From: Cytophagales bacterium
GTDB taxonomy: Bacteria; Bacteroidota; Bacteroidia; Cytophagales; Bernardetiaceae
Direction of reading: 5' to 3'
DNA length: 64,000 bases
Assembly (NCBI GenBank): GCA_013299045.1
Contig: JAAFJX010000007.1
Coordinates: 62,001-126,000 of the forward strand
Under the pieces are notes generated by a model, which did no database searches, was not told the DNA's origin, and saw only the letters and a list, made by a program, of their open reading frames with translations. The position numbers were made by a program, and so were the translations under genes. Shown one piece after another: positions 384-60,330 of this stretch; within the stretch, counting starts at the first letter, position 1, and every line of letters begins with the position of its first letter.

Positions 384-1160
384 TTTGGCGTGTATTATGC
401 CCATCAAAGCAATTTTTAGTCCGCAAATTTAGTGTTTCTATGCGAATGTAATAAACAAGTCAAAATATTTATAGTAATGGCAGGTAATCCTAAAGAAGAG
501 CTTATAACATTGTTTAAACCTATTTTAGTATGGATTGTCAGTTGTTTGATTGTCCTTGAATATACATCTAAAATTTTCATTATCATCAAGTTAAAGAAGA
601 ATTTTATCTTTAAAACCTCTTAGGTTAGTCTATTTTATAAAAAAATTGGCAAAACATTCAATTTATCCCTAAGACAGACTGGTTATAAGAACTTCAGATT
701 CATCTGATATGTCTTGCAAAGCCTTTCTAGGGACGAACAATCACTAAAAAACACAGGGGCGCGAATAATCTCAGCATAGAAGATGGAAAATGAAGCAAAA
801 GAGACGATACCAATTTGAAAATTTACCCAAAGTCATTAGAAAATTCCAACCGACTACACAAAAGTAAGTGCCCACAAGAATATTCCAAAAGCAAAATTCA
901 AAAATTTACAAAAAAAGAGAAGCATTTTCTGCCAAAACGTGAGTACAGTCCTGACAATTAGTCATCTTTTTTGCACGTTTTTTGCACTCCAAACGAAGCA
1001 AACTGCCATTTTTGCGGCTATATGCAGCGTTTAAGGACTTGGCACACAAAGTGCTAATTTTGTATTGGACTAAGAACCCACCGCCTAAATCCATTTGCGG
1101 TATTCTTTAACCTAGAAAGTTTATCTATTCACCAAACGACCTAAAAAACGTTTACGAGTC
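384..1160. other. Intergenic region hemC-groES, no gene recognised
   Basis: About 780 bases between divergent hemC and groES. It is AT-rich and holds only short, unconvincing frames (for example 432-623, 63 codons, low-complexity and hydrophobic). I found no tRNA-like or other structured RNA. The two ends carry the candidate promoters for hemC (424-431) and groES (1055-1062). The middle shows nothing I can name. Confidence 0.6.
1030..1062 (+). promoter_or_regulatory. Candidate groESL promoter with overlapping short palindrome
   Basis: TAATTTTG at 1055-1062 matches the Bacteroidota -7 consensus TAnnTTTG, with TTTA at 1030-1033 in the -33 position (21-base spacer). An inverted repeat, TTGGCAC (1039-1045) and GTGCTAA (1051-1057), overlaps the -7 element. 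Its arms resemble the outer part of the CIRCE heat-shock operator, but the spacing is far too short for a canonical CIRCE, so an operator role is inference. The leader to groES would be about 90 bases. Confidence 0.4.
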
Positions 1161-5167: not shown

Positions 5168-5482
5168 TTTTTTTTCTAAAAAGAATTTAAGTGTGCTTTT
5201 TATACACCTGAAAATCAATATTGAATCAAAAGAAGAGATAATTTAGCCACAGGGTCTATCAAAGGCTTTGAGATGACGGCCATGTAGCTATTTCTAAAGA
5301 AGTTTTGCTATGCTGTTTTTTGAACGTTCTTTTCTAGCCTGTGCGGTGTGTTGTTTGAGGATTCCCCGTGCAGCATTGCAGACCGCTAGAGCACCTGTAG
5401 TAAGCCTATCCATCTTCATACAAAAAAGGAAATAGATAGGGAGATGATTCTTTGAGGTATAAGTCATGGCCAAAGATATGGT
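5168..5482. other. Intergenic DNA before repeat copy A
   Basis: About 315 bases with no gene I can support. A 41-codon minus-strand frame (5294-5419) exists but has no recognised relative or translation signal. The stretch ends where repeat copy A begins. Confidence 0.5.
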
Positions 5483-6031
5483 TGATTAAAAACCGTCTTT
5501 TCCGCAGAGCTGCGGGGTTTTTGAACGAGAGCAAGCGCTTCAATTAACCTCTCTTGAGTCGTCAAAAAGCCCTTTTTGAGTTTTTTGAGTTCCAAACGCC
5601 CTCTTTTCACCTTTGTAGAGGCCATCTTCTCGCGTTTTCAAATAACTTTTTGCCAAATGCCTCATGTCTGGCCTTTTCAATATTTCTTCTTTTTCTACAA
5701 TTCTATTGGGGCGTTCCCGCTTCGCGGTCGTTCGTCTTTGGGCTTCGCTTTGCTTCGGTGCTACGCACTAAACCCGCCGCCTCTCTAACGCCAATACAGG
5801 CCAATAGACGTACTCAATAACAAAAAAAAGAGATAAAGCCGCAAACCAGCTTGATGCCTAAAAATTGCTTTTGTCCTATTTTGCCTTAGCCCTAGCACGA
5901 CCGTATCATAGCCGTATCATAGCCGTAGTTGGCCGTACTTTAAAAATAAAGCCCCTGTCTTAGAAAAATACAATTATTCGCTTCCTAAAACTTACATCTC
6001 TCAGAGAGGTTAATTAAGAGGTTGTTTTTTT
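5483..6031 (+). repeat. Dispersed noncoding repeat, copy A (full length)
   Basis: About 550 bases that recur almost throughout at 59630-60188 and in their 5' two-thirds at 27296-27630. Order of parts: a terminator-like hairpin (CCGCAG/CTGCGG followed by a T-run, about 5500-5521); the left arm AATTAACCTCTCT (5542-5554); a T-rich segment; the GC-rich 83-nt core (5709-5791); a 3' segment with two CCGTATCATAG units (5901-5922); and the right arm AGAGAGGTTAATT (6003-6015), an exact reverse complement of the left arm. Small frames inside are not conserved between copies, so I read it as noncoding. It lies just upstream of, and in the same orientation as, the TPR gene at 6145. It could be a nonautonomous mobile element or a structured RNA. 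Confidence 0.85.
5709..5791 (+). ncRNA. GC-rich structured core of repeat copy A
   Basis: 83 bases starting GGGCGTTCCCGC and ending CTCTCTAACGC, differing from the other two cores by a single base (T for C in the GCTTCGCT run). Ends can pair (GGCGTT/AACGCC). Inside, CCGC-TTC-GCGG and GTGC-TAC-GCAC form hairpins and GGG/CCC closes a branch around the latter, so a multibranch fold is likely. Typed as ncRNA because conservation and pairing suggest RNA; transcription is not shown. Confidence 0.4.
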
Positions 6032-6144
6032 TAATTCATCTTTTTTTTTAAATTGCGCTATCTACTGGTGTGGCCAGTACACTTGAACTGATAGATTTAT
6101 CTAATCGCCTAAATGTTTATGTATTTATGCTCCCAAAATGCGCT

Positions 6145-27192: not shown

Positions 27193-27295
27193 GCGCTATT
27201 CAGAAACCTCTGCCTTCCTGCTTCAATGAATGCTTTGTGTCTTTGGGTGTTCTTTTGCCAACAATATTACAAATTTTTATACAAATCAGTATGGT
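27193..27295. other. Short spacer before repeat copy B
   Basis: About 100 AT-rich bases after the symporter stop, with no gene, terminator or repeat that I can support. Confidence 0.4.
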
Positions 27296-27940
27296 TTATT
27301 AAAACCGTCCTTTCCGCAGAGCTGCGTGGGTTTTTGAACGAAATCAAGCTCTTAAATTAACCTCTCTTGAGTCGTCAAAAAGCCCTTTTGAGGTTTTTGA
27401 GTTCTAATTGCCCTCTTTTCACCCTTGTAGAGGCCCTTTTCTCGCGTTTTGAAATAACTTTTTGCCAAATGCCTTATATCTAACTTTTTGACTAATGATT
27501 GTTTTTCTACAATTTATTGGGCGTTCCCGCTTCGCGGTCGTTCGTCTTTGGGCTTCGCTTCGCTTCGGTGCTACGCACTAAACCCGCCGCCTCTCTAACG
27601 CAGATACAAGCCAAAAGACGTATCTAATAGCCCAATTTTTTCCTAAATAAATCCGTTTTTTTATCTAAATTGGCTTTTTTCATCTAAACCAGCGAATGGC
27701 TTTTTCTTTGATACACTCTGATACCAAACATGATTGCACAGAAAATCTCACTCTCTAATATTTGAGCCATTCGCTTTTGTCTGATGCGAGGCATGGCAGG
27801 CCGTAAGAAGCCCTTGAGGTTTTGCCAGTTATTTGACAAAATAGGCTAAAAACTAGTAGATTTTAAAGATAAAGATATTGGTTAATCTTCTGATAATAAA
27901 TGCTTGATGTACTTTTTAAGGGACGACTAATTAAGAGCTT
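27296..27940 (+). repeat. Dispersed noncoding repeat, copy B (5' part conserved, 3' part replaced)
   Basis: 27296-27630 matches the first 60 percent of copies A and C, including the terminator-like hairpin (CCGCAGAGCTGCG), the left arm AATTAACCTCTCT and the 83-nt core at 27519-27601. After 27630 the sequence is unrelated, yet CTAATTAAGAGCTT at 27927-27940 resembles the right arm of the other copies (CTAATTAATAGCTT in C) and fits this copy's own left arm AAGCTCTTAAATTAA. The right end may therefore be preserved with a different interior. The replaced part holds an exact 11-bp inverted repeat, AGCGAATGGCT (27691-27701) and AGCCATTCGCT (27765-27775). The firm part is 27296-27630; the extension to 27940 is inference. 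Confidence 0.7.
27519..27601 (+). ncRNA. GC-rich structured core of repeat copy B
   Basis: 83 bases, identical to the core of copy C. Closing pair GCGTT/AACGC and internal hairpins as in the other copies. It is far more conserved than its flanks, which suggests selection or recent spread. Transcription not shown. Confidence 0.4.
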
Positions 27941-59498: not shown

Positions 59499-59629
59499 AG
59501 GGCGTACAATAAAATTTAGACTAGATTGGGCTAGAGAACTATCAACTCATAACAACAAGCTTGCTTAGAATTTGTTTAGTTTTGTGGAGGCATCATTTGG
59601 TCTAATTTTGTCAAGAAAAGAACGAGTCG
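59499..59629. other. Spacer before repeat copy C
   Basis: About 130 AT-rich bases upstream of the photolyase start, probably holding its promoter. I could not fix a convincing -7 element. Confidence 0.35.
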
Positions 59630-59853
59630 TTTATTAAAATCGTCTTTTCCGCAGAGTTGAGGGGGTTCTGAACGAAATCAAGCGCTTAAATTAACCTCTC
59701 TTGAGTCGTCAAAAAGCCCTTTTTGAGTGTCTTGAGTTCCAAACGCCCTCTTTTCACTTTTGTAGAGGCCATTTTCTCGCGTTTTCAAATAACTTTTTGC
59801 CAAATGCCTTATATCTGATTTTTTGACTAATGATTGTTTTTCTACAATTTATT

Positions 59854-59936
59854 GGGCGTTCCCGCTTCGCGGTCGTTCGTCTTTGGGCTTCGCTTCGCTT
59901 CGGTGCTACGCACTAAACCCGCCGCCTCTCTAACGC
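59854..59936 (+). ncRNA. GC-rich structured core of repeat copy C
   Basis: 83 bases identical to copy B. Predicted pairings: GCGTT with AACGC at the ends; CCGC (59862-59865) with GCGG (59869-59872); GGG (59885-59887) with CCC (59918-59920) enclosing GTGC (59903-59906) with GCAC (59910-59913). Strongly more GC-rich than its surroundings. Whether it is transcribed is not known. Confidence 0.4.
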
Positions 59937-60045
59937 AGATACAAGCCAATAGACGCACTCAATAACAAAAAAAAGAGATAAAGTGGCAAACCCGCTTGAT
60001 GCCTCAAAATTGCTTTTGTCCTATTTTGCCTTAGCCCTAGCACGA

Positions 60046-60078
60046 CCGTATCATAGCCGTATCATAGCCGTGTCATAG
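60046..60078 (+). repeat. 11-nt tandem unit (three copies) in repeat copy C
   Basis: CCGTATCATAG twice, then CCGTGTCATAG, followed by the related CCGTAGTTGG. Copy A has two units at 5901-5922 and the same following segment. The difference in number is the main length change between the two full copies. Confidence 0.85.
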
Positions 60079-60330
60079 CCGTAGTTGGCCGTACTTTAAA
60101 AGTAAAGCCCCTATCTTAGAAAAGTACAATTATTCGCTTCCTAAAACTTGCATCTCTCAGAAAGGCTAATTAATAGCTTGTTTTTTTGAAATAATTTAAG
60201 CGTTCAAAGTAGTTTTTCAACAAAAAAAAACGATATTTGAGCCGAACTTCGCAAAGATTATTTGGTGAACCCAATTCTTGAGGTTAAAACAACTAAAATT
60301 TGTGCTCTACCACAATCCAAACAGTTTGTT

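Follow-up and report, generated by a model that had tools for sequence, protein, structure and literature searches.

A 555-bp repeat unit, here called Y, accounts for the three long noncoding repeats in the window (the whole 64-kb stretch of DNA analyzed) and is probably a lineage-specific, noncoding, nonautonomous mobile repeat of the MITE kind that also rides inside a second dispersed repeat, X. "MITE-like," one of the identities offered by the first-pass annotation of the window, is the best-supported reading: Y lies between genes in about 85 copies, its ends are discrete, and both nested insertions and paralogous empty sites occur. The core of Y is likely a distant homolog of the Flavo-1 motif (RF01705), and this relation suggests that Flavo-1 can travel as mobile DNA.

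RESULTS

A 555-bp Y consensus was built from 46 full-length copies, whose mean pairwise identity is 94%. The three plus-strand copies announced for the window are present. Copy 1, delimited by repeat comparison at about 5479..6024, is essentially full (consensus 7-555), and the target T-run, 6025-6032, follows directly after it. Consensus alignment placed copy 2, which is 3'-truncated (consensus 1-329), at about 27295..27623, and copy 3, which is full length (1-555), at about 59627..60180. Copy 3 is flanked by ...GAACGAG on the left and TTTTTTTGAAAT on the right (target G^TTTTT), and its right end (GCATCTCTCAGAAAGGCTAATTAATAGCTTG; 60150..60180, plus strand) is an imperfect inverted match to a segment near 59678-59705 (CAAGCGCTTAAATTAACCTCTCTTGAG). 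A covariance model located Flavo-1-like cores on the minus strand at 5709..5791 (21.9 bits, E 0.0038), 27519..27601, and 59854..59936; the core of copy 1, whose Flavo-1 strand is the minus strand, appears on the plus strand as GGGCGTT...CTAACGC. Copy 2 had been suspected to extend to 27940, but the plus-strand stretch 27667..27938 is not Y: it abuts copy 2 and is the right part of the different repeat X, X(207-463), ending in the TIR TTAAGGGACGACTA. Repeat comparison revealed a further X fragment on the minus strand at 553..655.

The family extends far past the three window copies, with about 85 loci in the 4.06-Mb genome, 47 of them full length. This figure derives from 87 loci with Y sequence in a 1.05-Mb sample that contains the core matches; 4 of the 87 touch an edge of the sample, several lie at contig ends, and the true number may be higher. 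The right end is kept at 69 of the 87 loci and the left end at 62. A search with the core pattern returned 77 matches genome-wide (38/39 by strand) compared with 0 for the reversed control, which puts the family far above chance, and at least 40 full or near-full copies were scored at 86-94% identity. Because the 87 loci divide 44+/43-, the shared orientation of the three window copies is due to chance and not to a strand bias. No full-length Y was found in 58 relatives, including 1 of the same genus and 9 others of the same family, and exact patterns of the core and of the Y right end each had 0 matches in viral contigs and in contigs of 84,980 species, a collection that may not include the genome of the window. 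As the first-pass annotation had stated, the core is the best-conserved part, with 97% identity to the majority base versus 93% for the rest. The least conserved part, at consensus positions of about 405-450 (window positions of about 60044-60085), consists of minisatellite-like ATAGCCGTATS units whose number varies among copies.

Y is without coding constraint, in agreement with the earlier claim that it carries no conserved reading frame: the median length of the longest ORF in a copy is 47 aa versus 56.5 aa in shuffles, and deletions of 1, 5, 10, and 21 nt recur among the copies, those of 5, 10, and 21 nt being common. An ORF is overlapped by more than 60 bp at only 1 of 83 loci. Y lies between convergent gene pairs 24 times versus 7 times between divergent pairs; within tandem pairs, it reads along with the genes 17 times and opposite to them 8 times, all of these placement numbers being approximate, as gene calling followed a simple rule of taking the longest ORF. 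This bias is the usual avoidance of promoters. A promoter and terminator scan of Y gave nothing above shuffles.

X is a second MITE family of about 470 bp (for example, L106:15831-16299) with the TIR AGTCGTCCCTTAAAA. Its TIR-like ends gave 375 matches genome-wide against 3 for the control, and several copies are bordered by 4-bp direct duplications (AGTT, ATTT, AACT, AGAT, and ACTT). X and Y jointly occupy about 3% of the sampled DNA and account for most of its repeats. Y is found repeatedly inside X at either of two sites, A and B. X lies next to 31 of the 47 full-length Y copies, while 16 have no X within 60 bp. Some chimeras combine the A left side with the B right side without the intervening X sequence (X 271-390), as expected from recombination between Y copies; in others, X is joined to Y at position 180, or Y 329-336 is joined to the end of X. 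The insertions and mosaics together indicate that insertion and recombination or hitchhiking both contributed to the spread of Y, and recombination alone could have spread many of the mosaic copies. No autonomous parent of X was found. A long X copy at L089 (2,025 bp) was considered as a transposase-bearing X and rejected, as the extra part is an unrelated inserted IS; this IS (L089:15700-17400) has a long transposase-like open region and the ends TTAACCCCTAACCCCG/CGGGGTTAGGGTTTAA.

In unique DNA, the left end of Y reads T(C/T/G)(G/A)TTTATTAAAACCG directly after a G, and the right end reads ...GGTTAATTAAGAGCTTG directly before TTTT(T). Among unique right flanks, T occupies the first base past Y in 36 of 36 and each of bases 2-4 in 34-35 of 36; at the left end, Y starts with T in 28 of 30 and is preceded by G in 21 of 30. 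The insertion site is thus G^TTTT(T), and its T-run is part of the target and not of Y, since X copies without Y keep it where Y interrupts other X copies. These paralogous empty sites, CTTAGTTTTTAGCC and CTCTGTTTTGCAAGAG, correspond to the occupied sites CTTAG[TCGTTTATT...GAGCTT]GTTTTTAGCC and CTCTG[TCG...GAGCTT]GTTTTGTAAGAG, and uninterrupted X reads CTTAG-TTTTTAGCC and CTCTG-TTTTGCAAGAG exactly at the Y entry points. The end of the IS at L089 likewise occurs without Y (ATCGGTTTTTAGCATAAATTCC, i.e., ATCGG-TTTTTAGC), and a 5'-truncated Y interrupts another copy, at C74. All empty sites read were paralogous ones; the same-genus genome has 72-75% identity to this genome, and synteny is lost.

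Target duplication at the Y ends does not exceed 0-1 base. Subterminal palindromes (CCGCAGAGTTGCGG and CTCTCAGAGAG) lie near both ends, and an imperfect inverted match of 23-27 bp (CAAGCKCTTAAWTTAACCTCTCT) links the right terminus with a site some 50 bp inward from the left terminus; the ends are poor, partly subterminal inverted repeats. Lacking target duplication and having weak inverted ends, Y is called MITE-like here and not a canonical MITE. One copy (C67:44150) begins exactly at the inner inverted-match point, and Y 47-555 may therefore be the older element.

The first-pass annotation was right that no gene or transposase in the window explains the family. The autonomous relative that it proposed to look for did not appear either: no such relative, nor a transposase with matching ends, was found in about 1.05 Mb read in detail, and the loci keeping only the right end, considered as candidate autonomous copies, all proved to be truncated or mosaic Y. 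The genome holds one Y1/RAYT-like gene, single copy and below the Pfam family cutoff. It lies at L189:1462-2301 on contig C65, within a type I restriction locus where the methylase gene is on one side of it and the specificity gene on the other, and has a repeated SPEMTC segment. Reverse transcriptase (PF00078) is absent from the genome, which is 99.8% complete.

The core is an 83-bp segment, GGGCGTTCCCGCTTCGCGGTCG...CTCTAACGC, with ends common to the Flavo-1 motif. The link was first seen when the pattern GGGCGTTNCC...CCGC...CTAACGC matched a second genome, G041, whose copies Rfam names Flavo-1 at 54-60 bits. The GGGCGTT...AACGC segments that the first-pass annotation mentioned for other Bacteroidota are real and related: they are Flavo-1 and its relatives, of which the Y core is a divergent one. 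Rfam searches of the window, of single copies, and of the genome gave no match, including with the Flavo-1 model at its gathering score, and a sequence-only Flavo-1 profile HMM did not match the Y cores; thus, the relation is visible only with structure and ends. A covariance model (R1) was built from 28 Flavo-1-like sequences of other Bacteroidota genomes, with Y excluded; these sequences were collected by a shared-end pattern, which favors a match to Y, and with R1 the three Y cores rank 1, 2, and 3 in the window (E 0.004-0.005; next match, E 1.6). In 776 kb, 16 of 17 R1 matches are Y cores or a solo core. With a second model (R2), whose members were mostly not chosen by end pattern, the Y cores rank 1, 2, and 4 in the window at weaker E values of 0.3-1.1. 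An AT-rich R1 match at L102:8671-8761 (21.8 bits) is not a Y core and is either a chance match or a diverged Flavo-1-like element.

The Y cores are top matches to the Y-free R1, the closing stem GCGTK/MACGC and the conserved Flavo-1 ends are present in them, and P1 and P2 of Flavo-1 can still be drawn. However, the covarying GGG/CCC stem of Flavo-1 (AGGGAT...AGCCCGACC), which carries compensatory changes in two Flavo-1 relatives, is deleted or mismatched in Y. Among the relatives themselves covariation is strong, with double changes in 8 of 18 pairs; in the alignment of the 28 sequences (loci L209-L236), the closing stem GCGTK/MACGC covaries (U-A 15, G-C 13). A solo core without Y flanks (C69:183444-183528, equal to L098:3444-3528; ends GTGCCC...CCCTCACGC) scores with both R1 (E 0.003) and R2 (E 0.008) and looks like an intermediate in sequence; another intermediate is element L031 in genome G017 (E 4e-6). 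The core was also considered as an integron attC site and rejected: attC sites carry the motif GTTRRRY, and the core runs GTT...AAC without it. Folding energies of the unit are no better than those of dinucleotide shuffles (z of +1.23 and +0.26 for the two strands and +0.07 for the whole unit). The proposal that Y is a structured RNA family is not supported, given this folding, the absence of an Rfam match, and the loss of the covarying inner Flavo-1 stem.

DISCUSSION

The features of Y are best explained by a trans-acting transposase that would recognize the Y ends (an TCGTTTATTAAAACCG...CCGCAGAGTTGCGG hairpin on the left and CTCTCAGAGAGGTTAATTAAGAGCTTG on the right) and would join them on the 5' side of T-runs, leaving no target duplication. 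Ordinary DDE transposition of Y is disfavored by its oriented insertion at G^TTTT(T) and by the lack of duplications, both of which fit an HUH-like process; Y would accordingly move by a single-strand (HUH-like) or other duplication-free route rather than by the DDE chemistry seen for X. Part of the copy number would come from Y carried inside X, with its TIR and 4-bp duplications, and recombination between copies would then have shuffled X/Y modules. Y probably captured its 83-bp core, a hairpin cassette that is a divergent relative of Flavo-1.

A specific form of this explanation, in which Y is a REP/RAYT-type or PATE-type element moved by an HUH transposase of the IS200/IS605 group, is possible but doubtful. 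The subterminal palindromes near both ends, the lack of target duplication, the oriented insertion beside a short fixed motif, and the RAYT-like protein in the genome all agree with it; nonetheless, the gene for that protein is single copy, falls below the Pfam cutoff, and sits inside a type I restriction locus, any guide/cleavage pairing for Y is putative, and Y is ten times the length of a REP. We regard it as unlikely that Y has no mobility of its own and was captured once by X, its later spread being due to X and to gene conversion or ectopic recombination. About two-thirds of the full-length copies do adjoin X, repeatedly at the same two X positions, and the A/B chimeras lacking X 271-390 are the expected product of recombination between such composites, but 16 full-length copies have no X sequence within 60 bp, and copies with unique flanks have identical precise ends and the same target.

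It is improbable that Y is a multicopy structured-RNA gene family, transcribed and under selection to keep the Flavo-1-like core RNA. The core is better conserved than the arms, P1 and P2 can be drawn, the core model matches, and Flavo-1 relatives covary strongly; against this, folding stays at the shuffle level on either strand and over the whole unit, the covarying GGG/CCC stem is lost, Rfam gives no match, and insertional mosaics and truncations are tolerated everywhere. Moreover, in a published flavobacterial transcriptome study, Flavo-1 matches were both sense and antisense, many of them outside transcribed regions (PMC9723704). More improbable still is retroposition, by which an RNA with a U-rich 3' end would prime on A-runs (the other strand of G^TTTTT) and leave a fixed 3' end and 5' truncations. 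Nearly all copies do have the right end fixed at T-runs, target duplication is lacking, and several copies cut short on the 5' side have unique DNA on the left while the right end is intact (C40:86917, C48:53981, C68:19462, C74:29187, and C69:200777); however, the lack of PF00078 in the 99.8% complete genome, the right-truncated copies (C39, C48:5606, and C70:8642), and the assignment of the T-run to the target speak against it. Mobilization of Y in trans as a MITE-like element, with part of its spread owed to X, is therefore the reading that we prefer.

The Flavo-1 copies of G041 (loci L130-L158, e.g., L138:1400-1660) form the interior of a 143-bp TIR element (TIR TTCTACTTTACGAAGTTA), and exact 4-bp duplications border 8 of 12 copies. 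Thus, at least some Flavo-1 "RNAs" belong to mobile DNA, and two families of the order each have a miniature transposon, with ends of its own, centered on a Flavo-1-type core. At L130-L136, the RF01705 match appears to stop short of the shared element's end by about 11 bases, and Rfam's Flavo-1 model may consequently be too short. The Flavobacterium psychrophilum transcriptome contains Flavo-1 matches both sense and antisense, many outside transcribed regions (PMC9723704). Together with Y and the 143-bp element, these data make it plausible that Flavo-1 is at least partly mobile DNA, and an RNA role is also possible. We advance only tentatively, and with less than even confidence, the broader idea that Flavo-1 is a DNA-level hairpin cassette, repeatedly captured and amplified by unrelated miniature transposons, whose covariation would reflect a need for a DNA hairpin or cruciform instead of an RNA function.

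The X and Y repeats constitute an undescribed mobile-repeat system. Flavo-1 is among the more abundant annotated RNA motifs in Bacteroidota, and no function has been assigned to it since 2010; the finding that miniature transposons enclose at least some of the annotated copies offers a concrete, testable reason, and pipelines that annotate Flavo-1 as an sRNA may be labeling mobile DNA.

Among known systems, Y resembles BrickBuilt of Porphyromonas gingivalis (PMC4596501) and the Cardinium MITE (PMC9769881) in being noncoding, intergenic, about 0.1-1 kb in length, present in tens of copies in a Bacteroidota genome, and nested with other MITEs; like BrickBuilt, it also holds an internal minisatellite. 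The TIRs of BrickBuilt match IS5-family ends, with some target duplications (PMC4596501), whereas the inverted ends of Y are weak, its insertion at T-runs leaves no target duplication, it contains a Flavo-1-like core, and its parent IS was not found in the sequence searched. Y shares with REP elements and RAYT-mobilized repeats (PMC3733652) its palindromes, its intergenic position, the lack of target duplication, and a RAYT-like gene in the genome; REPs, however, are 20-40 bp and tagged GTAG or CGTC (PMC3733652), while Y is a long mosaic unit. With Flavo-1 (RF01705; Weinberg et al. 2010, PMC2864571), the Y core has in common the ends GGGCGTKCCC...GGTCG...TMACGC, the closing pairing GCGTK/MACGC, the P2 hairpin, and a full-length match to a Y-free Flavo-1-like covariance model. 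It differs in having no Rfam-model match, no GGG/CCC stem, and a different interior, and in lying inside a 555-bp mobile unit in about 75 copies, compared with 1-24 copies for Flavo-1. The 143-bp element of G041 likewise places a Flavo-1-type core at the center of a dispersed MITE-like repeat, but its ends (TTCTACTTTACGAAGTTA) are unrelated to those of Y, and 4-bp duplications accompany 8 of 12 copies. Altogether, Y is a new family of MITE-like repeats whose one link of interest is to Flavo-1.
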